The translations under genes were made by a program, and so were the position numbers. DNA of 10,943 nt from Nitrospirae bacterium CG2_30_53_67 (GTDB lineage: Bacteria > CG2-30-53-67): contig MNYV01000016.1 in NCBI GenBank assembly GCA_001873285.1, positions 1 through 10,943 on the forward strand. The letters run 5' to 3'. This document shows, one piece after another, positions 1 through 10,943 of the stretch (its first letter is position 1; each line of letters starts with the position of its first letter). The notes under the pieces were generated by a model, which was not told where the DNA came from, ran no database searches, and saw nothing but the letters and a program-made list of their open reading frames with translations.

Positions 1-582
1 CGGCTCGTCAAGGAGCAGGATGTCCGGATTCTGAAGGAGGAGCCGGCAGAGCGCCACGCGGCGCTTCTCTCCGCCCGATAGGATTTTTACGGGCGTGTCT
101 CCTGCCGGACAACGCAGGGCATCCATGGCCATCTCCAGCCGTGAGTCCAGATCCCAGGCGTTCAGCGCATCGAGCTTCTCCTGCACCTCCCCCTGACGCT
201 CGATGAGTTTGTTCATCTCGTCGTCCGATATGGGCGCGGCAAACTTCTCATTGATCCGGTTGTATTCCTGGATCAGGTTCACGGTCTCCTTGACCCCTTC
301 TTCTACAATCTCACGGACGGTTTTTGTTTGATCCAGCCCGGGTTCCTGCTCAAGAAAGCCGACCGTATGGCCGGGTGAGAGCACGGTCTCGCCGTTAAAC
401 TCCTTGTCCACGCCGGCCAGGATGCGAAGGAGCGTGCTCTTGCCTGATCCGTTCAGCCCCAGGACGCCGATCTTTGCGCCGTAAAAATAAGAAAGATAGA
501 TATCCTTGATGACCGGCTTCTTGTCGTAATACTTGCTGACCCCGACCATGGAGTAGATGACCTTGTTCGGTTCCTCGCTCAT
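1..582 (-). CDS. ettA: EttA-like ABC-F ATPase, N-terminal part (runs off left edge)
   Basis: ABC-F protein of the energy-dependent translational throttle type: a cytoplasmic, soluble ATPase that binds the ribosomal E site and gates translation by ATP level. Only the first 194 codons are in the window. Visible are the opening KVIYSMVGVSKYY, Walker A GLNGSGKS (residues 42-49), the EttA-like stretch GFLEQEPGLD, a helical arm-like segment rich in E/K/Q, the signature LSGGEKRR (168-175) and Walker B LLLDEP (189-194), where the window ends. No transmembrane segment is present. Start choice: an ATG at 594 abuts the GGAGG at 595-599 with no spacer, whereas the ATG at 582 lies 12 nt from it and gives MSEEPNKVIYSM, the usual family N-terminus, so 582 is preferred. 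The gene is divergent from nothing close by; upstream is a repeat-rich gap. Family assignment is firm; the precise ABC-F subgroup rests on overall similarity as I recognise it. Confidence 0.93.
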   Translation of the reverse strand, partial: MSEEPNKVIYSMVGVSKYYDKKPVIKDIYLSYFYGAKIGVLGLNGSGKSTLLRILAGVDKEFNGETVLSPGHTVGFLEQEPGLDQTKTVREIVEEGVKETVNLIQEYNRINEKFAAPISDDEMNKLIERQGEVQEKLDALNAWDLDSRLEMAMDALRCPAGDTPVKILSGGEKRRVALCRLLLQNPDILLLDEP

Positions 583-667
583 AAGTTCGGACATCCTCCA
601 TCATGTTGTGTTTTGTGTCAGGATACCATATAGAAAAAGAAGATGAGATGCAATATATTTTGAGTCA

Positions 668-906
668 TCAACCTCCGGCAAAGCCGGAGGCTTGACGTTT
701 GCCGGCTCCTCAAAGGGGCCTATTCGCAAACGGTTAAAAACACCCTCCCCTCCATCCCCTCCCATCCAGGGAGGGGAAGCCCACTGGCAGTTCCCTCTCC
801 CCTTGTGGGAGAGGGCAAGGGCGAGGGGTAAAGCATTTCGGTTAACTGCATACTCCCGGAATGGCCAAACTCTGGGAGTCTCCCGGCAGAGCCGGGGGTT
901 TACCTA
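668..906. repeat. Palindrome cluster, possible REP/MITE-like unit
   Basis: Four hairpins lie here. The outer two are alike and face each other: CCTCCGGC-AAA-GCCGGAGG (672-690) and CCCGGC-AGA-GCCGGG (882-896), each flanked by AACC/GGTTT-type bases on the outside (the minus-strand reading of the right one begins AACCCCCGGC). Between them sit CCCCTCCC-loop-GGGAGGGG (756-776) and CCCTCTCCC-loop-GGGAGAGGG (793-815). The last is of the same type as the pair inside the GT4 gene at 8503-8614. The left palindrome could also affect the ettA leader. Any open frame across this block is repeat-derived. Confidence 0.6.
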
Positions 907-1106
907 AATGCTAATCAGCTTCTTGTGGACCGGAGATGAGTCCGGCTCAGGGCTTCAAGGCATTCTTTCCATCAGGGCAGGGCATTGAACTCATCAAGGG
1001 TCCTGCAACGCATGGCGGGATTCGTCTTTTTTTCTTCCCCGATGTTTGAAGTACATATCACACACCAGGCTTTGATGGATCGTTCAATCCGTGCCGTCAT
1101 CTTTGA
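907..1106. other. Intergenic stretch without recognisable gene
   Basis: I see no supported coding region, RNA or strong promoter in these 200 bases. Short open pieces exist in several frames but none carries a recognisable motif or a ribosome binding site. It may be decayed DNA between the palindrome cluster and the coding scrap that follows. Confidence 0.4.
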
Positions 1107-1229
1107 TTTATTACTCTACAGGTGAATCAGGTGGCCAGGCGTTTGGACGGTCTGCGTTTGCAGGACAGAACGCTGGACCGGAAAATCAAGTCGTTGGAAA
1201 GTGAGATAAGAAAATTGTGCAATGTGTAG
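1107..1229 (+). pseudogene. C-terminal scrap of a decayed gene (possibly transposase-related)
   Basis: An open stretch ends at TAG 1227-1229 and encodes a charged helix-like tail (ARRLDGLRLQDRTLDRKIKS then LESEIRKLCNV). A GTG at 1122 could start it, but there is no convincing ribosome binding site and upstream frames are closed by stops. Heptad-like spacing of L/I residues looks like the end of a real protein rather than random sequence. Just after the stop comes GTGTAGGTCTGACCCCA, a type of sequence I associate with the ends of REP-associated (Y1) transposase loci in related bacteria. That link is from memory and weak. It could equally be an unrelated short ORF. Confidence 0.25.
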
Positions 1230-1296
1230 GTCTGACCCCACATGACCCATGTACAAATCAAAAAGAACCGGGAAAGCGAAGAGGGACTGTGGGGTT

Positions 1297-1659
1297 CTAT
1301 TCTCCATAGATATGGATGGTTTCATCTCTCCATATACCGAGGATGTTTTTGATCTCCACGTCTGCGAAATAGACTTTTTTCAACCCATGTTTCTTAGCGA
1401 TATCGCCGAAAGCATTGGATTTGAGCTTGGCGTAGAGACCGTAGCCGGAAAAGGGCTCGTTGATCTGAAGGATCTTTCCGGCGGCTTGATGGGCCGAGGC
1501 AGGGGTGTTGTCGAGGTTGATCGTATAGGGGATGCGGATGTGGGTGTAAACATAACCGTTCAAGACGCTGTTTCCAGCCCTCCCGGTTATACCCGCACAA
1601 CCGGCCATGAGGGCGGACAGCAAGACAATGATTGGAATGAGTGTTCTTTTATGCGGCAT
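1297..1659 (-). CDS. TRL-like small lipoprotein (second of pair)
   Basis: A 120-residue exported protein. It opens with a basic n-region (MPHKR), a hydrophobic stretch and a lipobox LMAGC, so Cys21 should be the lipidated residue after signal peptidase II cleavage. No Lys/Arg-rich retention pattern is obvious, so outer-membrane or periplasmic-face anchoring is likely. The C-terminal part carries AFGDIAKKHGLKKVYFADVE followed by LGIWRDETIHIYGE, the pattern of the TRL-like family (small lipoproteins of unknown biochemical role). The start at 1659 has GGGAG about 11 nt upstream. The preceding gene ends 24 bp before this start, so the two are probably co-transcribed. Family membership rests on motif recognition; function is unknown. 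Confidence 0.75.
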   Translation of the reverse strand: MPHKRTLIPIIVLLSALMAGCAGITGRAGNSVLNGYVYTHIRIPYTINLDNTPASAHQAAGKILQINEPFSGYGLYAKLKSNAFGDIAKKHGLKKVYFADVEIKNILGIWRDETIHIYGE

Positions 1660-1683
1660 ATGAGATCATGCTCCCTTGCCTGA

Positions 1684-1986
1684 TCAATCTCCGTAAACCA
1701 CCACGGTCCATTTGGAATAGAGTCCGAAGAGCACTTGAACGACCTCCTGGTCCGCATGTCTCATGACCTTGATGTCTCCGTTCTTTGCTGCGGCGGCATA
1801 GCTGGCGTCCCCCCATGATACGAGCCATAAAAGGCTGTAGGCGCTGGCGGTCCCGCTCTTGGTCCCAAGTTCCGTCAGGTTGAGATCGGCATCGTAGGGG
1901 GTTTTGACATTGACATAGGCACAGCCGCTGTAAAAGAGAAGCATGGTGAACAGGATGATCAGAGTCATGCCGCGTTTGATGTTCAT
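1684..1986 (-). CDS. TRL-like small lipoprotein (first of pair)
   Basis: A 100-residue exported lipoprotein. From the start at 1986 it reads MNIKRGMTLIILF..., a signal peptide ending in lipobox FYSGC with Cys22 as the predicted lipid site. The C-terminal half has WGDASYAAAAKNGDIKVMRH then ADQE...LFGLYSKWTVVVYGD, the same G(I/L)xKVxxADxE...G(I/L)(Y/W)xxxTxxxYG pattern as its downstream neighbour, so the two are divergent paralogues of the TRL-like family. A longer open frame reaches 2052, but the extra residues come from an intergenic repeat; AGAGGAG at about 1996-2002 sits correctly before 1986. It is read first from the promoter at 2082-2110. The role is unknown for this family; an envelope-surface function is inferred from the lipobox only. 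Confidence 0.78.
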   Translation of the reverse strand: MNIKRGMTLIILFTMLLFYSGCAYVNVKTPYDADLNLTELGTKSGTASAYSLLWLVSWGDASYAAAAKNGDIKVMRHADQEVVQVLFGLYSKWTVVVYGD

Positions 1987-2021
1987 AGGCGTTTTTCTCC
2001 TCTGCAAAAGACCGTATTGTT

Positions 2022-2053
2022 GAATTCTAACCACAGAGCACACAGAGAACACG
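2022..2053 (-). repeat. Dispersed CCACAGAG/ACACAGAG repeat in lipoprotein leader
   Basis: Minus strand reads TGTTCTCTGTGTGCTCTGTGGTTAG, here in two overlapping halves. A close relative (CTCTGTGTTCTCCGTGGTTAG) occurs at 5178-5198 upstream of the ABC permease. In both places it lies about 35 nt upstream of a start codon and in the same orientation relative to the downstream gene. Confidence 0.6.
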
Positions 2054-2081
2054 TATGATTCCCTGTTGATCTGATAAAAGT

Positions 2082-2110
2082 ATAATAGGGGAAGGCCTAT
2101 GGCCTGTCAA
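2082..2110 (-). promoter_or_regulatory. Sigma70-type promoter of the lipoprotein pair
   Basis: On the minus strand a perfect -35 TTGACA (2110-2105) is followed after exactly 17 bp by TATTAT (2087-2082), five of six matches to the -10 consensus. It points at the gene starting at 1986, giving a leader of roughly 90 nt that contains the CCACAGAG-type repeat. Confidence 0.75.
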
Positions 2111-2261
2111 TGAAGATTTGTGCATGTTGAATGAATTAAAGGTTTTGCTCATGATGGTTATTTAAACGTAATTTTTAGCATAGAGGCAGCGGTCATCTTA
2201 AGGAATAACGCAGAAATTTTCGGTATATCCGGATCGTGTTTCAGTCCGCCTAAAAAACCTC
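2111..2261. other. AT-rich intergenic DNA, no gene seen
   Basis: Base composition drops to AT-rich here. The minus strand keeps an open stretch of about 30 codons (reading GLKHDPDIPKISALFLK, then a stop at 2160-2158). It has no start, ribosome site or motif I recognise, and may be a remnant of transferred DNA. Confidence 0.3.
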
Positions 2262-2289
2262 TTGTATTACATTGAGAATATGGTATAAT
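2262..2289 (+). promoter_or_regulatory. Putative promoter of the transglutaminase/ABC operon
   Basis: Perfect -10 TATAAT (2284-2289) with a weak -35 TTGTAT (2262-2267) 16 bp upstream. It is the best promoter-like site before the transglutaminase gene. The predicted transcript would carry a leader of over 300 nt made almost wholly of palindromic repeats (2341-2614), which could fold strongly. Confidence 0.5.
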
Positions 2290-2340
2290 CATTTAAAAAG
2301 ATAGATGTTTAGTAGGATTGCAAAAGGAAGGTTAAATATT

Positions 2341-2614
2341 GTCATTCTCCGGCTTGCCCCGCTTGTCCCGATCTATCGGGACGGTTTACCGGGCTTGCCC
2401 TCTTGCCCTCGGCTTGCCGGGGCGGTTTACCGGGGTTCGAACGGAGAATCCACCCTTCGACAGGCTCAGGGTGACAATTGTCATGATGAGCTTGTCGAAC
2501 CATGGATTGCCCGATCGGGCCTGCCCTCCGACTCCGACCGGGGGGTCGGGCAATGACGACTCAATTGCTGGAGCTTTGGTGATCGCTTGATCAATCATCA
2601 AGTCGGGCAATGAC
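2341..2614. repeat. Compound palindromic repeat block 1 (GTCATTC...AATGAC family)
   Basis: Starts GTCATTCTCCGGC and closes with CGGAGAATCC near 2451; the loop of this palindrome is filled by further palindromes (CCCGATC-TATCGGG, then TGCCCTCTTGCCCTCGGC... to CCGGGG at 2396-2435, whose 40 nt recur exactly at 10189-10228). Next comes the 56-bp core 2450-2505 in inverted orientation, then GGATTGCCCGATCGGGCC... ending GGGCAATGAC at 2557, and a last half unit with CTTGAT/ATCAAG (2586-2602) ending GTCGGGCAATGACGAC (2602-2617). The final unit overlaps the longest possible start of the next gene. Confidence 0.85.
2450..2505 (-). repeat. 56-bp core repeat, copy 1 (inverted)
   Basis: Imperfect palindrome with arms CTTCGACAGGCTCA and TGAGCTTGTCGAA around a central CAATTG. 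Its reverse complement differs by one base from the copy at 7093-7148, although the flanks of both copies (GAATCC on the left, ATTGCCCGATCGGGCC on the right) are in the same orientation. Confidence 0.85.
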
Positions 2615-2639
2615 GACAGAGGAAAAAGGGGCAAGGCTT

Positions 2640-4142
2640 ATGTCGGTTCGGTCGTTTCGATTGCTGACCTGCGGGATTGTCGCTGCCTGGGTTTTTGTTT
2701 TTTCCCTGCTTATTTACCGCCATTATGTTTCCGGAGTGGCCATCTCGCCCATGCAGAAAATCAGCGGCGATTTCTTCAGGATCCATGACCAGTGGTTCGG
2801 TCTTTACCTCTCCCGGAAATCAGAGACAGGGGAATACAAGGAAAAGATCGGACATCTGCACTTCACCACGGAGAAGATCGGGAACGAATACCGTTTTGTC
2901 CAGCACGCGGAGATGACCCTGAACCGGAATGGAAACAAGGAAACAGTCAGGGACGACCTTCGCTGTCTTTCGGATGCCGGATACCGGGTCAAGTCATTCG
3001 ACTATGAGAGCGATGTCGATGGGTCGTCGTACAAGGCGCACGGTGAATTTAAAGACGGCCTCATGGTCATGTTCATGGAGAAAGGCGGAGAGCACCGGGC
3101 CGTCAACAGGGAGATGAAGGAGCCCCCGTATTTCCCGCTGACGGTCAAGGCCGCCCTTTTCGAGGAGGGGCTTGTCATGGGGAGGAAGGTTCAGTTCGCC
3201 GTGCTTGACTTCCTAACCCTGAATGTGGTTCAGGGCACAGCCGAGGTGGAGGATATGATCCCGGTCAAGTCGGGCATTCAGGTTTATACGGCCTATCGCG
3301 TCACCCTGTCTTATCCAGGGATGAGAGACCGGTTCTGGATGAGTGAGGCCGGGGTCACGCTGCGTGAGGAACTTCCCACAGGGATCCTGGTCATGTACGA
3401 GACGGAGGTGATGGCAAAAGCGGCCCTGAAAAAGGGGGTGTTTTTTGATTACCTGATGCTCCCCACGGTCAAGAGCAATATCGTGATCTCGGAGCCGTCC
3501 AAGGTGAAGGGGATGACGGTCAGAATCGAAGGTATTGATCCTGCGCGATTCCCCGCGCTCAATGGAGACGATCAGACCGTGAACGGGGATAGGGTCGAGA
3601 TCCGGCGTTATACCGAGGAAGAAGTCAAGAAAGATACTTATGATCTTCCCTACGCAGGGGACGACATGAAACCATACCTTGAACCGACGCCCTGGGTGCA
3701 GAGCGATGATCCGAAAATCAAGGAATTCTCAAAGGCTGTTCGGGGCGGTTTGACGGACGCGGCCCTGGTGTCCGGGAGTCTCACGGGAAGGATGTACGGT
3801 TGGATACAGGCACAGCCGAGCGCCCTGATTCCTACGGCTCTGGATGCGCACAAATACAGGGCCGGTGAGTGCCTGGAGTATACGGTTTTGTACACAGCCG
3901 CGGCCAGGGCCGCCGGCCTTCCGACCCGCATGGTTGCAGGCCTGGTTCCGGTCCGCGGGCTCTTTTATTTTCATACATGGGCCGAGGTCTGGATCGGACG
4001 GTGGGTGCCCGTAGATCCGACACGGGGGGAATGGCCGGCCGGCGCCGCACGGATACGGTTTGTCACGGGCGGCATGGAAGATCTTCTCGCTTTTATCCGA
4101 GAGATCGGTAAGATACGGATCCAAGTGTTGGAGGTCTTATGA
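2640..4142 (+). CDS. Membrane-anchored transglutaminase-like protein
   Basis: A 500-residue protein (from 2640). An N-terminal membrane segment (about residues 8-27) is followed by a large, probably extracytoplasmic region of about 350 residues with no motif I recognise, rich in alternating beta-like patterns. The C-terminus holds a transglutaminase-like (cysteine protease fold) domain with a full triad: Cys411 in GECLEYTVL, His445 in YFHTWAEVW and Asp459 in VPVDPT. Such domains act as transglutaminases, peptidases or amidases, so the reaction cannot be read from sequence. Start choice: an in-frame ATG at 2610 exists but is supplied by the end of a palindromic repeat and lacks a ribosome site; ATG 2640 is preceded by AAGGGG with 8 nt spacing. 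Its stop overlaps the next ATG (ATGA), so it is translationally coupled to the ABC ATPase. Context suggests modification or processing in the periplasm of something the exporter handles; this is inference. Confidence 0.85.
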   Translation: MSVRSFRLLTCGIVAAWVFVFSLLIYRHYVSGVAISPMQKISGDFFRIHDQWFGLYLSRKSETGEYKEKIGHLHFTTEKIGNEYRFVQHAEMTLNRNGNKETVRDDLRCLSDAGYRVKSFDYESDVDGSSYKAHGEFKDGLMVMFMEKGGEHRAVNREMKEPPYFPLTVKAALFEEGLVMGRKVQFAVLDFLTLNVVQGTAEVEDMIPVKSGIQVYTAYRVTLSYPGMRDRFWMSEAGVTLREELPTGILVMYETEVMAKAALKKGVFFDYLMLPTVKSNIVISEPSKVKGMTVRIEGIDPARFPALNGDDQTVNGDRVEIRRYTEEEVKKDTYDLPYAGDDMKPYLEPTPWVQSDDPKIKEFSKAVRGGLTDAALVSGSLTGRMYGWIQAQPSALIPTALDAHKYRAGECLEYTVLYTAAARAAGLPTRMVAGLVPVRGLFYFHTWAEVWIGRWVPVDPTRGEWPAGAARIRFVTGGMEDLLAFIREIGKIRIQVLEVL

Positions 4143-4891
4143 TCACCATCAATCATGTTGTCAAACAGTACGGAGGTTATACGGCCGTGGACGGCCTCTG
4201 TCTTGAACTCAAGGAGGGAGAGATCTACGGACTGCTCGGTCCCAACGGCGCCGGCAAGACCACGACCATCAAGATGATCATGGGGCTTTTGAAGCCGACC
4301 TCAGGGACCATCAGGATCGCCGGGTATGACATCCAGAAAGAACCGATCCCGGCCAAAAAGATGATCAGCTACGTGCCTGACCGGGCGTACCTCTATGAAA
4401 AACTGACGGCATGGGAATTCCTCCGTTTCATTGCAGGACTCTATGAACTGGATGATCAGACCTTAAAGGATCGGGGGCAGGAACTTCTGAAACTTTTCGA
4501 GCTCGAAAAATGGCAGGATGAACTCATCGGTAACTTCTCGCACGGGATGAAGCAGCGCCTCTGCATGGCTTCGGCATTCCTCAGAAAACCGAAAATCCTG
4601 ATCCTGGACGAGCCCACGGTGGGTCTCGATCCCAAGGGGGCGAGGCTTTTAAGGGAGATGATGCAGTCTTCCAGGGACCACGGGATGACGATCATGATGT
4701 CCACCCATATCCTTGAGATTGCGGAGAAGATGTGCGACCGGATGGGGATCATCCTGAAGGGAAGGCTGATTGCGGAAGGGACCTCCGAAGAAATCCGGCA
4801 GCAGGCCAGCATGAGCGGCAGAGGGCTGGAGGATGTTTTCCTCCACCTTACCGGCGGCGAGGAGATGGCGGATCTGATCAAGATCCTGTAG
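4139..4891 (+). CDS. ABC transporter ATP-binding subunit (ABC-2 export type)
   Basis: A 250-residue cytoplasmic nucleotide-binding subunit of normal length. Walker A is GPNGAGKTT (residues 34-42), the signature is FSHGMKQR (133-140; the SHGM(K/R)Q variant typical of ABC-2 exporters), Walker B is ILILDEP (153-159) followed by the D-loop VGLDP, and the H-loop is STH (188-190). At the usual Q-loop glutamine the sequence reads YVPDRAYLYEKLT, with Asp81 in its place; acidic residues here occur in this exporter subgroup. It overlaps the transglutaminase gene by 4 bp (ATGA). Its partner permease starts at 5235, unusually far away because a repeat block has been inserted. Substrate unknown. Confidence 0.93.
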   Translation: MITINHVVKQYGGYTAVDGLCLELKEGEIYGLLGPNGAGKTTTIKMIMGLLKPTSGTIRIAGYDIQKEPIPAKKMISYVPDRAYLYEKLTAWEFLRFIAGLYELDDQTLKDRGQELLKLFELEKWQDELIGNFSHGMKQRLCMASAFLRKPKILILDEPTVGLDPKGARLLREMMQSSRDHGMTIMMSTHILEIAEKMCDRMGIILKGRLIAEGTSEEIRQQASMSGRGLEDVFLHLTGGEEMADLIKIL

Positions 4892-4896
4892 TCACG
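4886..4896 (+). repeat. 11-bp direct repeat, left copy (putative target duplication)
   Basis: CTGTAGTCACG spans the stop codon of the ATPase gene (TAG 4889-4891) and is repeated exactly at 5211-5221, 14 nt before the permease start. The DNA between is entirely repeat-type sequence. Joining the two copies would give an 18-nt intergenic spacer with an intact ribosome site. Confidence 0.7.
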
Positions 4897-5210
4897 GTCA
4901 TTGTCATTCCCCGACTCGATCGGGGAATCCAGATGTCGTCCCACGGCTTGACCGGGGGAACCAGGTCGTAATACTGGATCATCCGGTCAAGCCGGATGAT
5001 GACGAATCAATGATGCTGTCATTCCCCGACTCGATCGGGGAATCCATGGTTCGACAAGCTCACCATGACAATTGTCACCCTGAGCCTGTCGAAGGGTGGA
5101 TTGTCCGGTCGGGCCTGTCCTCCGACTTGATCGGGGGACCGGACAATGACAAACAGCCTATTAATATCCGAGGAATTCTCTGTGTTCTCCGTGGTTAGGT
5201 TTTGAAAATA
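4897..5210. repeat. Inserted palindromic repeat block 2
   Basis: Contains GTCATTCCCCGACTCGATCG (from 4903) closing GGGGAATCCAG, a looser spacer, and a hairpin ATCCGG-TCAA-GCCGGAT ending ATGATGAC at 5002. A second compound unit follows at 5018-5150: GTCATTCCCC...GGGGAATCC, the 56-bp core (5044-5099), then GGATTGTCCGGTC... ending CCGGACAATGAC. After it comes a copy of the CTCTGTGTTCTCCGTGGTTAG repeat (5178-5198). Open frames here are repeat-derived. The block separates two genes that should form one operon. Confidence 0.85.
5044..5099 (+). repeat. 56-bp core repeat, copy 2
   Basis: Reads CCATGGTTCGACAAGCTCAC...CCTGTCGAAGGGTGG with central CAATTG; identical over its length to copy 3 at 7093-7148 and opposite in orientation to copy 1 at 2450-2505. 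Confidence 0.88.
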
Positions 5211-5221
5211 CTGTAGTCACG
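5211..5221 (+). repeat. 11-bp direct repeat, right copy (putative target duplication)
   Basis: Exact second copy of CTGTAGTCACG (first at 4886-4896). It runs straight into the permease ribosome site GAGGTGGAG (5221-5229). Confidence 0.7.
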
Positions 5222-5234
5222 AGGTGGAGAGACC

Positions 5235-6968
5235 ATGAAAGAGATCCTGATTTTGCTTGCGCCCCAATGGTGGGCATTCAAGAACCGGATCCTCAGGTTT
5301 GACCGGACCCTCTACTTCAGAACCTTTTTCCTCCTGATTTTCGGCGGAGGATTCTGGGGGGGGAGTATCGTTCTGCTGAGCCATGCCTTGTCCCGTCTTC
5401 AGAGCCTTTCCCCGGATGCCGGGAGGATCCTCACCTTGAAGGGGCTCTCGCTTTTTATCCTGATCAGCTTCTTCATCCTGATGTTCAGCGGGATCATCAC
5501 GGCCATCAGCCGTTTCTATCTTTCCCAGGAGCTCCCCATGCTTCTTTCATTTCCTGTCTCACGGGGGAAGATCTATGCGGCGAAGTGGATCGAAACCCTG
5601 ATCAGCGCATCCTGGATGGTCCTTCTTTTCGGCATCCCCGTGTTCTTTGCCTTCGGGCTCCAGTTTCTCGTGAATGCCTGGTATTATCCCTGGCTCCTCT
5701 TTATCCTTGCGGTTTTCGTGACCATACCCGTAGGCATCGGGATATGGCTGACCATCCTGATCATGTCGGTCCTCCCCGCACGACGGGGAAAGAGCCTTTT
5801 CGTGTTTTTGGGGTTCCTGATCTTCGCGCTCCTTTATATGCTGGTTCGGTTCATGCGTCCGGAACGCCTGATCAATCCGGAATGGTTTGCCAACCTGACC
5901 ATGTTTCTGGCCGGCATGCAGGCGCCGGCATCGCCCTTTCTTCCGAGCATGTGGGCCGCCGAAGCCCTGGGTCCCTTTTTCCATACCGGCGAAGGGACTC
6001 CCGTGTTTTATGCCGTACTCCTTGCCTCAACCGGGGCGGCCATGATGGTCTTCGGATACTGGACCTTTGAGGCCCTCTATGCCGCAGGGTGGCTCAAGGC
6101 ACAGGAAGGAAAAAAGGTTTTCTTCACCCTGTCCGAGACGTCCGTGCAGAACCGGAGATGGCTTTCAATCTTCGGGATCTGCCGAATCATCCGGTTTTTG
6201 ATTTACAAAATGTCCGGCAAAGTCAGACGCGGCCTGTCCGAAAAGGATATTCTCCTTTTCATCCGGGATGAAGGGCAGTGGTCTCAGATTCCGTTGCTTG
6301 TCACCCTGATCGTCATCTACCTGTTCAGCATCAAGGCCCTGCCTCTTGAATGGGGGACGCTGGTGGGGCTGGGCATCAAATATATGGTGGCCTTTCTCAA
6401 TATCGGACTTGTGGGTGTCGTGATGGCCTCGATTGCCGTGCGATTTCTGTATCCTTCCGTAAGCCTGGAAGGAAGGGCCTTCTGGCTGATCCGGACCGCG
6501 CCGATCAGCATCCGGACATTTCTCTGGAACAAGTTTTTCGTCAATTTCATCCCCATGCTCTTTCTGACTCTGTTACTGACGGGTATCTCCACGTTCTTTC
6601 TCCATGTCAAGACCTGGATGGTCATGATCAGTATGGGCACCGGCGTTCTCCTTGCCGCATCCATCACCGGGCTTTCCGTGGGCATGGGCGCCGCCTATCC
6701 GAACTTTGAGGCGGAGAACCTATCCCAGGTCTCAACCGGCCTTCGCGGGACCTATTATATGCTTCTGGCCCTGCTTCTGATCCTGAGCACCATTGCCCTG
6801 GAGTCCGTACCCACCATCGGGATTTTTTTAGGCGAGGTCTCCAAGGAAACCCTCCTGACACGCGCCAAGGTGGTCATCGGGCTCTTTTTTGCCGCAGTTT
6901 TGCTTCTGAACATGCTTTTTCTCTATCTCCCCATGCGGATCGGAGAGCGCAGGCTCGAAGGTGAGTAA
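5235..6968 (+). CDS. ABC exporter permease (putative ABC exporter family)
   Basis: A 577-residue polytopic inner-membrane protein with roughly a dozen hydrophobic segments in two halves, separated by a hydrophilic stretch (about residues 285-350) that should lie on one face. Conserved-looking motifs include ISRFYLSQELPMLLSFPVSR in the first half, SLEGRAFWLIRTAPIS and AYPNFEAENLSQVSTG in the second. This is the layout of large ABC-2-related exporter subunits that pair with a single ATPase of the type encoded just upstream. Start supported by GGAG (5226-5229) at 5 nt and a further GAGGT at 9 nt. It lies 343 bp after the ATPase gene only because of the inserted repeat block. Together with the ATPase and transglutaminase-like protein it likely forms an envelope export/processing unit; substrate not deducible. 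Confidence 0.85.
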   Translation: MKEILILLAPQWWAFKNRILRFDRTLYFRTFFLLIFGGGFWGGSIVLLSHALSRLQSLSPDAGRILTLKGLSLFILISFFILMFSGIITAISRFYLSQELPMLLSFPVSRGKIYAAKWIETLISASWMVLLFGIPVFFAFGLQFLVNAWYYPWLLFILAVFVTIPVGIGIWLTILIMSVLPARRGKSLFVFLGFLIFALLYMLVRFMRPERLINPEWFANLTMFLAGMQAPASPFLPSMWAAEALGPFFHTGEGTPVFYAVLLASTGAAMMVFGYWTFEALYAAGWLKAQEGKKVFFTLSETSVQNRRWLSIFGICRIIRFLIYKMSGKVRRGLSEKDILLFIRDEGQWSQIPLLVTLIVIYLFSIKALPLEWGTLVGLGIKYMVAFLNIGLVGVVMASIAVRFLYPSVSLEGRAFWLIRTAPISIRTFLWNKFFVNFIPMLFLTLLLTGISTFFLHVKTWMVMISMGTGVLLAASITGLSVGMGAAYPNFEAENLSQVSTGLRGTYYMLLALLLILSTIALESVPTIGIFLGEVSKETLLTRAKVVIGLFFAAVLLLNMLFLYLPMRIGERRLEGE

Positions 6969-6999
6969 ACGGATCTCTCATTCTTCGGATCAAGTGTAG

Positions 7000-7021
7000 G
7001 GCAGGCTCTACGAAGCTTGCC
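7000..7021 (+). terminator. Weak hairpin after the permease gene
   Basis: GGCAGGCT (7000-7007) can pair with AGCTTGCC (7014-7021) around a 6-nt loop, with one G-T pair, 31 bp after the permease stop. No long T run follows, so a Rho-independent terminator is only possible. A second small hairpin TAGCCT/AGGCTA lies at 7030-7051. Confidence 0.3.
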
Positions 7022-7066
7022 TTGCAATATAGCCTTGCATAAATGAGGCTACATATTGTCCATATC

Positions 7067-7200
7067 GTCATTCTCCGGCTTGACCGGAGAATCCATGGTT
7101 CGACAAGCTCACCATGACAATTGTCACCCTGAGCCTGTCGAAGGGTGGATTGCCCGATCGGGCCTGCCCTCCGACTCCGACCGGGGGGTCGGGCAATGAC
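7067..7200. repeat. Compound palindromic repeat block 3
   Basis: Begins GTCATTCTCCGGCTTGACCG and closes GGAGAATCC, then the 56-bp core in forward orientation (7093-7148), then GGATTGCCCGATCGGGCCTG to GGGGGGTCGGGCAATGAC. The right third is identical to the right third of block 1 (2505-2557). Outer flanks TTGTCC and GGACAA extend the inverted symmetry imperfectly. Confidence 0.88.
7093..7148 (+). repeat. 56-bp core repeat, copy 3
   Basis: Arms TTCGACAAGCTCA and TGAGCCTGTCGAA around CAATTG. Same as copy 2; reverse complement of copy 1 apart from one base. Confidence 0.88.
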
Positions 7201-7316
7201 GACAGGGTGGACAAGATTAAGTATACTATGCAACCTTAGATATATTATGTCGCTTTAATTATGTAATGATATAAAGTGGTATGCAGGGAGCAGAAATCCA
7301 TTCAATATTATAAACT

Positions 7317-7340
7317 GTCATTCCTGCGGAGGCAGGAATC
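7317..7340 (+). repeat. Short GTCATTC...GAATC palindrome before a GIY-YIG relic
   Basis: GTC followed by the perfect palindrome ATTCCTGC-GGAG-GCAGGAAT, then C. It has the same ends as the larger repeats but different arms and a minimal 4-nt loop, so it may be a simple founder-type unit. It lies 22 bp before the broken GIY-YIG start, in the orientation seen before the intact one. Confidence 0.75.
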
Positions 7341-7362
7341 TATTTTCACTCAGAGTAACCCT

Positions 7363-7407
7363 ATGAAATATTATTATGTTTACATATTGGAGAGTAAAAA
7401 GATCTGA
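7363..7407 (+). pseudogene. Broken start of a GIY-YIG nuclease gene
   Basis: The ATG at 7363 begins MKYYYVYILESKKI and then hits TGA (7405-7407). The opening matches the N-terminus of small GIY-YIG nucleases, including the intact one in this window (MEKSYYIYILASQRNGTLYI). A shifted frame directly after reads SDQFIVLS, where the YIG strand would be expected, which suggests a frameshift followed by loss of the rest. No further GIY-YIG sequence is seen before 7500. The preceding palindromic repeat parallels the intact copy. The relic is short, so the call rests on about 14 residues plus context. Confidence 0.6.
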
Positions 7408-7420
7408 CCAATTTATTGTA

Positions 7421-7449
7421 TTGTCTAAGCCAGGAAAATATTTTATAAT
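7421..7449 (+). promoter_or_regulatory. Sigma70-type promoter of the glycosyltransferase pair
   Basis: -35 TTGTCT (7421-7426, four of six matches) and a perfect -10 TATAAT (7444-7449) with a 17-bp spacer. It would start transcripts near 7456, about 55 nt before the GT2 gene. It lies in AT-rich DNA just after, or within, the GIY-YIG relic. Confidence 0.65.
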
Positions 7450-7511
7450 TTAATAGGTTAGCAAGACTGTCAGGAAATTGTATCCGGAAATTTGGGCTGC
7501 AGGAGCGGCGA

Positions 7512-8459
7512 ATGACTCAAAAGTTTGACCTATCCATCGTCATCCCGGTATTCAACGAGTCCGGAAGTCTTGAAGATCTCCTGAATTCTCTGCACGCGGC
7601 ATTGGCCCCTCTTGCCCGTCCCTATGAGATCATCTTTGTGGATGACGGAAGCAGGGACGGCACGAGCGAGAAACTCGAAGCGCTTCACGCAAAAGACCCC
7701 ATGGCCAAGGTCATCCAGTTGCGGGATAACTTCGGCAAGGCCGTGGCCCTGTCCGTGGGTTTCGAACATGCCTCCGGAGACATCATCTTTACCATGGACG
7801 GCGACCTGCAGGACGATCCTCAGGAGATTCCTCATTTTCTTGAAAAACTTGATGAAGGATTTGATCTTGTCTCGGGTTGGAAATTCAAGAGAATGGACCC
7901 GGTCGGGAAGACTTTGCCGTCCCGGATCTTCAACCGGGCGGTCTCTTTGATGACGGGGATCAAGCTCCATGATTTCAACTGCGGGTTCAAGTGCTGCCGG
8001 AAGGACGTGATCCGGAATATCCGGATCTACGGGGAACTGCACCGGTTCATCCCAGTGCTCGCCAGGTGGAAGGGATTCAGGGTTGCCGAAATCAAGGTGG
8101 AACATCATCCGAGAATTCATGGGGTGTCAAAGTACGGCATGGAGCGCTTCACGCGGGGGTTCCTGGACCTCCTGACCATTCTTTTCTTGACGCGTTATCT
8201 TAAAAGGCCCCTCCACTTCTTCGGCGGCATCGGACTGCTCTGTCTCATCCCCGGCATGGCATTGAGCGCCTTTTTTGCCGTGCAGTGGCTCCTCGGATAT
8301 CCCATGCATGTCCGGCCCCTCATGGTCTTCGGCTGGGTGGCGATCATCATGGGGATCCAGTTCATCTCCATGGGCCTGCTCGGTGAGATGCTGATCCATT
8401 CGATGCATGCCGACAGGAAGAAAGAAGACCCTTCGATCATTATGAAAAAACTCATATGA
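7512..8459 (+). CDS. GT2 glycosyltransferase, polyprenyl-phosphate-sugar type
   Basis: A 315-residue membrane-associated family 2 glycosyltransferase of the dolichyl/undecaprenyl-phosphate sugar transferase type, which moves a sugar from a nucleotide donor to a polyprenyl phosphate on the cytoplasmic face. Seen in order: the Rossmann start LSIVIPVFNESGSL (residues 7-20), FVDDGSRDGT (42-51), RDNFGKAVALSVGF (71-84), the metal-binding region FTMDGDLQDDP (93-103), HGVSKYG (about 203-209), and two C-terminal membrane helices (about 232-257 and 267-293). Length and topology suit the GtrB/ArnC-like group; the sugar cannot be assigned. The ribosome site is AGGAG (about 7500-7504). It overlaps the next glycosyltransferase gene by 4 bp (ATGA). 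Likely pathway: surface polysaccharide, lipid A or protein glycosylation. Confidence 0.9.
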   Translation: MTQKFDLSIVIPVFNESGSLEDLLNSLHAALAPLARPYEIIFVDDGSRDGTSEKLEALHAKDPMAKVIQLRDNFGKAVALSVGFEHASGDIIFTMDGDLQDDPQEIPHFLEKLDEGFDLVSGWKFKRMDPVGKTLPSRIFNRAVSLMTGIKLHDFNCGFKCCRKDVIRNIRIYGELHRFIPVLARWKGFRVAEIKVEHHPRIHGVSKYGMERFTRGFLDLLTILFLTRYLKRPLHFFGGIGLLCLIPGMALSAFFAVQWLLGYPMHVRPLMVFGWVAIIMGIQFISMGLLGEMLIHSMHADRKKEDPSIIMKKLI

Positions 8460-9763
8460 AACATCCACGAGACCTGGGCTCACAAAGAGGCATGAAAATT
8501 TTCCCCCTCACCTTTATCCTCTCCCTAACGGGGAGAGGAAATAATAGTAGTGGAAAGAGGGATGTAAACGACCGAGTCCCCTCTCCCCTCTGGGGAGAGG
8601 GTGGGGGTGAGGGGCATTCCCATCTGAAGATCTGTTATTTTGGGACCTATGAGAAGAATTATCCGAGAAACAGGGTCATCATTGAAGGACTCCGAAGAAA
8701 CGGGGTGGAGGTGATCGAATGCCATTATCCTTTATGGGAGAGAGAGCATCACAAAACCGGCGGGTATCTTTCATTCATCAATCTGACGCTGCTCAGCTTC
8801 CGGCTCCTGTGGGGGTATATCCATCTCTGCTTCCGGTATTTTCGGATCGGACCATTCGATATTCTCATGGTGGGGTATATCGGTCAGATGGATCTTCTCC
8901 TGGCAAAGTTATTAAACCTTGTGCATCGGCGGCCTCTTGTGTTCAACCCTCTGATCTCCCTTTATGATACCCTTGTCCTTGACCGGGGGATTTTTCGGGA
9001 AAGGTCGGTTCTCGCGAAACTCCTTTATTATCTGGACAAGTGGTCGATGAAACTTTCCGACCTTGTTATCCTGGACACGGATACGCATATCGAACATATC
9101 GCCGCACTTTTTCATGTTGACCGGAAGAAATTCATCAGGGTTTTCGTCGGGGCCGAAGAGAATCTATTTTACTCGAGACAAAGCGCCCCCATGCAGGACG
9201 GGGTGTTCAGGGTCCTTTTTTACGGGAAATATATTCCCCTTCATGGGATCCATCATATCCTTCACGCGGCCAAAGCGTTGGAGGGGAATCAGGAGATCCG
9301 ATTTCAGATGATCGGGAAAGGCCAGCTCTCTCGCGAGATCCGCGAATTGGCTTTAAAGCTTGAACTCAGGAATATCGAGTTCATCGAGTGGGTGAGATAT
9401 GAAGAGCTTCCGGGATATATCCATCAGGCGGATGTCTGTCTCGGGATCTTCGGAGATACGGACAAGGCGCGGCGGGTCATCCCCAACAAGGTCTTTCAAT
9501 GCTTGGCCATGGGCAAACCGGTGGTGACGCGTGCATCCCAAGCCTTCTCGGAATTGTTGACCGGCGGACACGATGTCCTTTTCTGTGAACCGCCATATAT
9601 CCAGTCTATAAAGGAATCCATTCTGCGGCTGAAAGAGGATGCTGAACTTAAACGCCGACTCTCAGAAAATGCATTGGAGTTATTCAGGGGTCATTTGGCC
9701 CAGGCAAAGCTGACTGCCGGATTGGCCGAGGAGATCGGAAAGAGGTTTGCGTGCAACTCCTAA
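8456..9763 (+). CDS. GT4-type glycosyltransferase with repeat-derived N-terminus
   Basis: A 435-residue cytoplasmic, GT-B fold glycosyltransferase. The recognisable protein begins at about residue 57 (LKICYFGTYEKNYPRN), with an acceptor-side domain and then the C-terminal nucleotide-sugar domain: FRVLFYGKYIPLHGIHHIL, FQMIGKGQL, IEFIEWVRYEELPGYIHQAD, and the donor-binding region RRVIPNKVFQCLAMGKPVV. Residues 1-56 are odd: after MKHPRDLGSQRGMKI come about 40 residues (FPLTFILSLTGRGNNS... PSPLWGEGGGEG) translated from a palindromic repeat pair at 8503-8614. The first ATG overlaps the GT2 stop, so coupled translation is possible; ATG 8492 with AGAGG upstream is another start. It works with the GT2 enzyme in glycan assembly; acceptor and sugar unknown. 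Confidence 0.87.
   Translation: MKHPRDLGSQRGMKIFPLTFILSLTGRGNNSSGKRDVNDRVPSPLWGEGGGEGHSHLKICYFGTYEKNYPRNRVIIEGLRRNGVEVIECHYPLWEREHHKTGGYLSFINLTLLSFRLLWGYIHLCFRYFRIGPFDILMVGYIGQMDLLLAKLLNLVHRRPLVFNPLISLYDTLVLDRGIFRERSVLAKLLYYLDKWSMKLSDLVILDTDTHIEHIAALFHVDRKKFIRVFVGAEENLFYSRQSAPMQDGVFRVLFYGKYIPLHGIHHILHAAKALEGNQEIRFQMIGKGQLSREIRELALKLELRNIEFIEWVRYEELPGYIHQADVCLGIFGDTDKARRVIPNKVFQCLAMGKPVVTRASQAFSELLTGGHDVLFCEPPYIQSIKESILRLKEDAELKRRLSENALELFRGHLAQAKLTAGLAEEIGKRFACNS
8503..8614. repeat. GC-rich REP-like palindrome pair inside the GT4 gene
   Basis: Outer ends CCCCCTCACC and GGGGGTGAGGGG are inverted copies; inside lie CCTCTCCC-TAAC-GGGGAGAGG (8518-8538) and CCCTCTCCCC-TCT-GGGGAGAGGG (8579-8601). 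The pair is in frame and free of stops. It resembles the hairpin at 793-815, and is a different family from the GTCATT repeats. Confidence 0.85.
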
Positions 9764-9798
9764 TTTTTCAACACTCTGATGTTTGGGATTTATAGTTC

Positions 9799-9991
9799 GT
9801 CATTCTCCGGCCTGCCTGTGCGTGTCCGCACGCAGACAGATCTGACCGGACTTCAGATAATAGACGAATACCTGTCTGCCATTGTACAGGCAGGCCTATT
9901 AAACGGTTTTACACTTTGTCATTGTCCGGCTCGACCGGACAATCCAGTTTCTTTAATTGTTTAAATTTCCCGGTCAAGCCGGGGAACGGCG
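9799..9991. repeat. Palindromic repeats after GT4 gene
   Basis: GTCATTCTCCGGCCTGCCTG opens a degenerate unit containing the hairpins GTGCGTGTCCGCACG and CTGTCTGCC-ATTGTA-CAGGCAG. Then GTCATTGTCCGGCTCGACCG closes as GACAATCCAG (about 9918-9946), and TTCCCGG-TCAA-GCCGGGGAA (9967-9986). No gene is seen in this stretch; open frames are repeat-derived. Confidence 0.75.
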
Positions 9992-10090
9992 TCTGGATTC
10001 CCCGATCAAGTCGTGGAATGACAGAGGGTGGTGCGGAGAATGACAGGGTTTGTAATCGTGGAATGACAGGACATCATTGTTTTGTCATTG
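9992..10090 (+). repeat. About 100-bp direct repeat, left copy, upstream of GIY-YIG gene
   Basis: Opens TCTGGATTCCCCGATC and runs through GGGTGGTGCG, GGGTTTGTAATC and GACATC to TTTTGTCATTG. It aligns to 10541-10640 with about ten substitutions and one single-base gap by eye. The two copies bracket the GIY-YIG gene. Confidence 0.75.
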
Positions 10091-10247
10091 CCCGACCCCA
10101 CGATCGGGCCTGCCCTCCGACTTGATCGGAGGGTCGGAGGGCATGCTTGATCGGGCAATCCAGTTCCTTGTTTCGTCATTCTCCGGCCTGCCCTCTTGCC
10201 CTCGGCTTGCCGGGGCGGTTTACCGGGGCTCGACCGGACAATCCAGA
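10081..10247 (+). repeat. Two tandem GTCATT repeats leading into GIY-YIG gene
   Basis: First unit GTCATTGCCCGACCCCACGA... closing TGATCGGGCAATCCAG; second unit GTCATTCTCCGGCC (from about 10175) whose loop holds the 40-nt segment 10189-10228 shared exactly with 2396-2435, closing CGACCGGACAATCCAGA at 10247. The nuclease ATG is 6 bases further on. Confidence 0.8.
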
Positions 10248-10252
10248 TTTAT

Positions 10253-10570
10253 ATGGAAAAGAGTTATTACATTTACATATTGGCGAGTCAGCGAAATGGT
10301 ACTTTGTATATTGGAGTAACCTCTGATTTGATAAAGCGTATTTGGCAGCATAAGAATAAATTAGTGGAAGGGTTTACTGAAAAATATGGTGTAGATAAAC
10401 TTGTCTATTATGAACAGTTTGAAGACGCAGAATATGCTCTCAATAGAGAGAAGAGATTGAAAAAATACAATCGAAAATGGAAAATGGATATGATTGAAAA
10501 GTTGAACCCGGATTGGAAAGATTTGTATGAGGAGTTAATATCTGGATTCCCCGATCCAGTCGGGGAATGA
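10253..10570 (+). CDS. Small GIY-YIG nuclease nested between inverted repeats
   Basis: A 105-residue stand-alone GIY-YIG domain protein of the UPF0213/COG2827 kind. Visible are the first strand YYIYIL (residues 5-10), YIG (19-21), the helix TSDLIKRIWQHK with the family Arg29, and the downstream REKRLKKYNRKWK with the likely metal-binding Glu66. Proteins of this fold cleave DNA with one metal ion; the cellular role of this small group is not settled. Start at 10253: upstream codons are pure repeat, and no good ribosome site is seen. The last nine residues (SGFPDPVGE) and the stop are encoded by a palindromic repeat starting at 10541; the preceding repeat ends at 10247. The body of the gene is AT-rich against its GC-rich surroundings, a sign of separate origin. 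A longer open frame upstream to 10196 is repeat translation. Confidence 0.9.
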   Translation: MEKSYYIYILASQRNGTLYIGVTSDLIKRIWQHKNKLVEGFTEKYGVDKLVYYEQFEDAEYALNREKRLKKYNRKWKMDMIEKLNPDWKDLYEELISGFPDPVGE

Positions 10571-10640
10571 CAGGGGGTGGTGCGTGGAATGACTGGGTTT
10601 GTAATCATGGAATGAGACGACATCGTTGTTTTTGTCATTG
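10541..10640 (+). repeat. About 100-bp direct repeat, right copy, overlapping GIY-YIG stop
   Basis: Begins with palindrome TCTGGATTCCCC-GATCCAGT-CGGGGAATGAC (10541-10571), which encodes the nuclease C-terminus and TGA, then continues parallel to 9992-10090 up to TTTTTGTCATTG. Confidence 0.78.
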
Positions 10641-10764
10641 TCCGGCTTGCCCTCGGTTTACCGGGGCTCGACCGGACAATACAATTCTTTGTTTTGTCAT
10701 TGCCCGACTTGATCGGGCAATCCAGAGAGGGGTTCTGGATTCTCCGGTTGGGTCGGAGAATGAC
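10634..10764. repeat. Palindromic repeats before the last gene
   Basis: Three units in a row: GTCATTGTCCGGCTTGCCCT... closing CGACCGGACAATAC; GTCATTGCCCGACTTGATCG closing GGGCAATCCAG; and, in the opposite direction, CTGGATTCTCCGGTTGGGTC closing GGAGAATGAC at 10764. The middle unit is a simple, nearly perfect palindrome with a short loop. Confidence 0.82.
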
Positions 10765-10808
10765 AATATATAGCATTATTTGTGCAAAGCTATATAAGAG
10801 GTTGCACG

Positions 10809-10943
10809 ATGACTCCTTCTTGCGATCAGGCAAAAAAGATGGCATGGGGCGAAGAGCCGGAATTCTTCGGCCCACGCCACTATTTCAGAGAGAGCATGAT
10901 CATCCGGAATCTGAAGAAAAGGGTGCCGGGGCAATCGCGTGTC
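10809..10943 (+). CDS. Start of a gene, possibly a SAM-dependent methyltransferase (runs off right edge)
   Basis: 45 codons are visible and open to the window end. The ATG is preceded by AAGAGG (10796-10801) with a 7-nt spacer. The product begins MTPSCDQAKKMAWGEEPEFF, then GPRHYFRESMIIRNLKKR and VPGQSRV. An aromatic-rich lead followed by a helix and a GxSRV-type strand entry is what I would expect ahead of the VLDxGCG motif of class I methyltransferases, but that motif lies outside the window, so the function is a guess. Same strand as the glycosyltransferases; it may belong to the same glycan locus. Confidence 0.55.
   Translation, partial: MTPSCDQAKKMAWGEEPEFFGPRHYFRESMIIRNLKKRVPGQSRV

Follow-up and report, generated by a model that had tools for sequence, protein, structure and literature searches.

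What spreads the CGTC-type repeats of bacteria? These repeats (GTCATTCCC...GGGAATCCA) are widespread in bacterial intergenic DNA. They were named as a superfamily of repetitive extragenic palindromic sequences (REPs) by Di Nocera, De Gregorio and Rocco in 2013, whose survey found no enzyme for them and reported no dedicated transposase (PMC3733652). The question is raised by a locus of Nitrospirae bacterium CG2_30_53_67, in which a small gene for a GIY-YIG nuclease lies between two inverted REPs. The locus is part of a 10,943-nucleotide stretch of DNA (contig MNYV01000016.1 of assembly GCA_001873285.1, positions 1 to 10,943), here called the window. We consider it probable that a CGTC-type REP (GTC-hairpin-CCAG), the nuclease gene and an inverted REP (CTGG-hairpin-GAC) make up a compact mobile unit whose nuclease acts on the REP hairpin, and the nuclease is the strongest candidate for the enzyme behind the spread of CGTC-type REPs, one of the most common families of palindromic repeats in bacteria. 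Framed nuclease genes with matching repeat types, gains and apparent loss scars offer a testable answer to the question. If the nuclease cuts its own repeat, bacteria would possess a second, independently evolved counterpart of the system formed by REPs and their REP-associated tyrosine transposases (RAYTs), and a GIY-YIG nuclease would join the enzymes able to spread DNA.

The nuclease gene and its two repeats

The gene occupies positions 10253 to 10570 of the + strand and encodes 105 amino acids (aa). Its product matches the Pfam family GIY-YIG (PF01541) with an E value of 1.7e-15 and 57.5 bits against a cut-off of 22.6, and Pfam detected no other domain in it. The catalytic residues that define the GIY-YIG superfamily are present as Y8, Y19, R29, E66 and N85, which are invariant across 24 family members. 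Its nearest solved relatives by sequence, UPF0213/YhbQ-type small GIY-YIG proteins (PDB 1zg2, E 1e-6; 1ywl, E 5e-5), are remote.

The left REP, GTCATTCTCCGG...CCGGACAATCCAG, extends from 10175 to 10246 on the + strand. It consists of a GTC tag (as CGTC, 10174-10177), a stem ATTCTCCGG / CCGGACAAT with one mismatch, a long loop that holds a nested palindrome, and a CCAG tail; its end motif AATCCAGA lies at 10240-10247. A strict hairpin scan misses this repeat because of the imperfect stem and the palindrome nested in its long loop. The right REP, an inverted copy on the - strand at 10541 to 10571, reads TCTGGATTCCCCGATCCAGTCGGGGAATGAC on the + strand, opening with TCTGGATT, and GTCATTCCCCGACTGGATCGGGGAATCCAGA on the - strand, with the tag TGTC, the stem ATTCCCCGA and the tail CCA. 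Both tags are directed outward from the gene. The repeats are separated by 293 bp; the ATG at 10253 follows the left repeat by 5 bp, and the codons for the nine C-terminal residues (SGFPDPVGE) and the TGA stop fall within the right repeat. GC content is 33% in the open reading frame (ORF) up to 10540, lower than in the left repeat (68%), the right repeat (56%) and the window as a whole (52%). The first-pass annotation had described this layout, including the AT-rich character of the ORF, and its coordinates for repeats and ORF are exact to the base.

The CGTC superfamily is characterized by a CGTC tag, a stem starting with AT, a CCA tail and head-to-head pairs (PMC3733652). Judged by these traits, the window repeats are members. 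One end of each is an unpaired tag, (C)GTC or TGTC; the right REP has the stem of about 8-9 bp starting with AT, the short loop and the CCA tail, while the loop of the left REP is longer and nested. One REP subtype occurs in 40 exact copies in the genome, according to searches and fetched stretches, and many of these are paired, with spacers of about 10 bp and the same outward tag order as around the nuclease gene. Away from the gene in related loci, 50 of 74 adjacent, closely spaced REP pairs are likewise tag-out, with spacers mostly of 4-76 bp. The difference from the 2013 description is that a GIY-YIG gene sits between the repeats here.

Framing of homologous genes and agreement of enzyme and repeat

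Framing is general for this GIY-YIG subfamily. Public genomes were searched with the protein sequence alone, which gave 80 homologous loci (L040-L119). By the phylum names in the record titles, they span Nitrospirota, Nitrospinota, Desulfobacterota, Alpha-, Beta- and Gammaproteobacteria, Chloroflexota, Patescibacteria, Bacteroidota, Bipolaricaulota, Spirochaetota, Omnitrophota, Actinomycetota, Campylobacterota and Melainabacteria; the REP-framed package itself was found in at least 12 bacterial phyla. Repeats were located with a sensitive descriptor (a GTC tag and a stem of at least 5 bp), and a gene was counted as framed when REPs with outward tags lay on both sides. Framing was found for 46 of the 80 homologues, where 0.22 were expected, and for 3 of 744 control ORFs from these loci (Fisher p 1e-49); of the short control ORFs, 1 of 262 was framed. 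At least one correctly oriented REP accompanied 70/80 homologues versus 83/744 controls, and a stricter stem descriptor gave 37/78 versus 3/753. The first-pass annotation had proposed to look for an enrichment of repeats at GIY-YIG genes; REPs frame this subfamily about 140 times as often as the controls. A general attraction of REPs to GIY-YIG genes was rejected, since REP framing was seen at none of 21 genes from other GIY-YIG subfamilies, some of which share a genome with the loci above.

The framing was replicated independently in a collection of named plasmid records that includes Azospirillum lipoferum, Novosphingobium aromaticivorans and Sinorhizobium meliloti, three species listed as CGTC carriers in the 2013 survey (PMC3733652). 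Clear frames were seen in Rhizobium sp. CIAT894, Aeromonas caviae and N. aromaticivorans. On the A. lipoferum plasmid AZO_p3 (L294), the gene lies between sufB and sufC of the iron-sulphur operon, with two full REP pairs flanking it. In S. meliloti the repeats are related ones whose tag has changed, and no frame was seen in some of the records (Photobacterium, Rhizobium tumorigenes). Phage records contained remote homologues only.

The repeats also change together with the protein. Their stems vary widely among loci (ATTCCC, ATTCCG, ATCCTG, ATCGCC, ATTGC, GTTCCC and more), and yet 25 of the 46 framed loci have the same 6-nt stem on the left and on the right, where shuffling gives 3.3 (at most 10 in 5000 shuffles). 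When mapped on the protein tree, stem class requires 27 changes compared with 39.9 for shuffled labels (minimum 36), and tail class requires 11 compared with 20.9 (minimum 15). REP type follows the protein tree, which has 97 columns and is poorly resolved, and host ancestry adds to the stem and tail signal. Across 60 genomes, a close homologue occurs in 6 of 9 that are REP-rich and in 3 of the 51 others (p 1.2e-4); the units of the latter three carry other repeat types, which the pattern does not see.

These data bear on whether the gene could be a passive passenger, an AT-rich accessory gene that owes its movement to a transposase acting in trans or to recombination among the many REPs. Recombination at REPs does occur, as is seen from a copy in inverted orientation (G093) and from a duplication in direct orientation (L052). 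But other genes in the same loci, including short ones, are almost never framed, a single protein family is accompanied by different REP types across phyla with matching left and right stems, and Di Nocera et al. linked no transposase to CGTC REPs (PMC3733652). We therefore regard passive carriage as highly improbable.

Gain, loss and gene-less forms

The whole unit, including its REPs, has been gained at new sites and lost again. Between sucC and sucD of Undibacterium, a REP-GIY-YIG-REP unit is present in 3 of 43 species, while the flanks lie close together in the remaining species, and no REP was seen in the empty spacers that were read. The filled sites comprise two protein lineages and two REP types, and one copy has a stop codon. 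They are gains, because a loss that restored near-identical spacers in so many species is not credible; and as the empty spacers that were read are free of REPs, the REPs arrived there together with the gene. The sufB-GIY-sufC arrangement of Azospirillum counts as a further gain.

A Bradyrhizobium site between rmuC and ampG (names assigned by us from the flanks) has filled, empty and inverted alleles. Among the empty ones are internal deletions that retain the 3' end of the gene, and a symmetric GTC-hairpin-GAC form in genomes G158, G227 and G198. Of the about 49 REPs of that type in G158, this one alone is symmetric, and it stands exactly at the site where relatives carry the gene; in the window genome the symmetric form was found 0 times, against 40 exact REP copies. 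Since it is unique in the former and absent from the latter, its sequence is best read as the scar of a loss between the two hairpins. In Dyella, three species are filled and three are without the gene; one shows the same symmetric scar.

The boundaries and copy numbers are in keeping with a mobile unit. The related genome G075 has two copies at other sites, 92% and 81% like the window unit, and the similarity stops with the final base of the right REP. For a C-terminal remnant elsewhere in the window genome (G000:C38), the end lies no more than a few bases from that point. Many genomes have several gene copies, some of which are pseudogenes. The window's own locus is present in no relative searched.

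Gene-less forms of the unit, that is, solitary REPs and tag-out REP pairs, are abundant. In Dyella, two of three REP pairs read carry an inner extension, CCAGTAGCGA, beside the left hairpin, and a gene-bearing unit has the same CCAGTAGCGAC directly before its start codon. With this inner sequence in common, the pairs look like miniature derivatives of the gene-bearing unit. The first-pass annotation had suggested that enzyme and repeats travel together, and had named as a check the comparison of empty and filled sites. Its suggestion gains support from the same site being filled in some species and empty in relatives, from the end of homology at the REP, from multiple and decayed copies and from the miniature forms; the opposite pattern, a gene conserved in place without repeats in most relatives, is not what was found, as presence varies among relatives.

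Two further explanations need to be weighed here. GIY-YIG domains are best known from homing endonucleases, and REP pairs might spread by other means while the nuclease cuts inside a pair and its gene is copied into the break by repair. The domain type, a weak match of 8/24 family members to the group I intron endonuclease family TIGR01453, the shared tag-out order of gene-less pairs and the symmetric palindrome without a gene at the Bradyrhizobium and Dyella sites are all in keeping with such homing. It is nevertheless a disfavoured reading, and although it is the main rival we judge it unlikely: the empty Undibacterium spacers read are REP-free, so that REPs came with the gene; the symmetric palindrome is otherwise absent (the window genome has 0 against 40, and G158 has 1 among about 49) and is therefore not a common target; and REP type tracks the protein tree. 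The symmetric palindrome as a normal insertion target was likewise rejected, as it is absent genome-wide save at the former gene site. Alternatively, the protein may be a host enzyme that trims or resolves REP cruciforms, with its own gene under REP control and no mobilisation. REP hairpins need processing, and the gene is often a single intact copy; but it does not keep its place, close species differ in having or lacking it, and many genomes contain several copies or decayed ones, which makes a purely domestic role very improbable.

A mobile unit with an active nuclease thus remains the preferred reading, and several steps can be proposed for it by analogy with RAYTs, which cleave single-stranded REP DNA at GTAG. 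The nuclease would recognise the REP hairpin in single-stranded or cruciform DNA and may nick or cut at or near the GTC tag. The two inverted REPs would set the ends of the copied or excised segment, and host replication and repair would complete the insertion. REP pairs with short spacers would be non-autonomous derivatives moved in trans, as REPINs are thought to be moved by RAYTs, but here by an unrelated enzyme.

Several observations weigh against this reading. Ten of the 80 homologues have no correctly oriented REP even by the sensitive scan. The REP-rich genomes G001 and G025 have no intact gene copy, so there the REPs outlive the gene or use another enzyme. The bases bordering the Undibacterium insert also differ from those of the empty species, and transfer of a whole sucC-unit-sucD segment from another genus is a possible route of gain. 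No clean target-site duplication was seen at insertions. Loss scars could arise without the nuclease, by ordinary slippage between the two hairpins. Finally, binding or cleavage of REP DNA by the nuclease is inferred, by analogy with RAYTs.

Known systems and neighbouring repeats

The closest parallel is the REPtron, in which GTAG-tagged REPs accompany a RAYT (TnpA_REP tyrosine transposase), together with the REPINs. In both, an enzyme gene has short palindromic REPs with an unpaired tag on its two sides, in inverted orientation, the genome contains many gene-less copies, single or in pairs, and enzyme and repeat types co-vary. However, the enzyme of the unit is a GIY-YIG nuclease of 95-105 aa, the only domain found by Pfam, and not an HUH Y1 tyrosine transposase of the IS200/IS605 family; and its REPs have the tag (C)GTC in place of GTAG, and a CCA or CTN tail. 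The unit works like a REPtron but is not one, because its enzyme and tag differ. The comparison with REPs and RAYTs drawn in the first-pass annotation therefore holds for the inverted REPs around an enzyme gene and the many gene-less copies, and fails for the enzyme and the tag.

Free-standing GIY-YIG homing endonucleases share the catalytic domain with the unit and are also small nuclease genes that spread. The unit differs in having no intron and no single conserved host gene as target, with copies at many unrelated intergenic sites, and in being flanked by its own repeats, which are gained with it. The UPF0213/YhbQ-type proteins mentioned above are remote relatives, and the 21 other GIY-YIG genes tested were unframed. 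The dRS3 repeats of Neisseria, whose core we take to be ATTCCC...GGGAAT, resemble the unit repeats in this core and in a GTC tag, and a GIY-YIG homologue of Neisseria gonorrhoeae lies among such repeats (L295; NZ_CP119140.1, 1881260-1883556, a 2.17-Mb record filed as a plasmid and of chromosome size). Unlike in the unit, the nearest repeats there have their tags inward.

There is a real chance that the unit deserves a class of its own. We lean towards the broader view that it represents a distinct, phylum-crossing class of mobile elements, with the GIY-YIG nuclease as sole protein, that gave rise to the CGTC-type REPs and their relatives (GTCATTGCGAG..GCAATC, GTCATTCTGAG..GAATCT and neisserial dRS3) in very many bacterial genomes. 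In the open-access literature, with subscription papers and preprints outside the search, we found no paper that links GIY-YIG nucleases with REPs, a literature search with the repeat sequence itself gave no useful hit, and a 2025 REP survey names no nuclease and no transposase.

The unit of the window is embedded in a dense REP array on both sides (9918-9947, 9992-10022, 10084-10163, 10634-10683, 10696-10725 and 10735-10764). The REP at 9918-9947 (+ strand) is of the same superfamily, and the inverted one at 9992-10022 (- strand) is 94% like the right REP over 32 nt. Those at 10696-10725 (+ strand) and 10735-10764 (- strand) are the two halves of a tag-out pair with a 9-bp spacer, a miniature form. 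Further upstream, a REP of another type, GTCATTCCTGCGGAGGCAGGAATCTA (7317-7342, + strand), immediately precedes a decayed N-terminal fragment of a second GIY-YIG gene (7363-7425, + strand), which reads MKYYYVYILESKK... and then an in-frame stop (best E 4e-4 in a 360-bp stretch). From its sequence, 7317-7425 is a second, dead unit of REP and GIY-YIG gene. At three places in the window (2434-2560, 5028-5154 and 7077-7203), two inverted REPs enclose a copy of a 127-bp composite palindrome, CACCCTTCGACAGGCTCAGGGTGACAATTGTCA...; it seems to be another repeat that uses the space between REPs.

Other arrangements of GIY-YIG genes were encountered. Genome G050 has several near-identical decayed REP-GIY-REP units (L253, L254, L255, L256 and L035), at least two of which lie inside a larger inverted-repeat element with the outer ends CCGCAGTTT... 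/ ...AAACTGCGG. At L244 (G027:C20:53900-56200), inverted repeats that are not REPs, CCCCGTTAGAGAT / ATCTCTAACGGGG, enclose a GIY-YIG gene of another subfamily. Small GIY-YIG genes of a different subfamily adjoin putative tRNA genes (L246, L250, L251 and G000:C17:20050, which is L003); at three loci the gene lies between a tRNA-like fragment and a second copy of the putative tRNA, as if it had been inserted into a tRNA gene with duplication.
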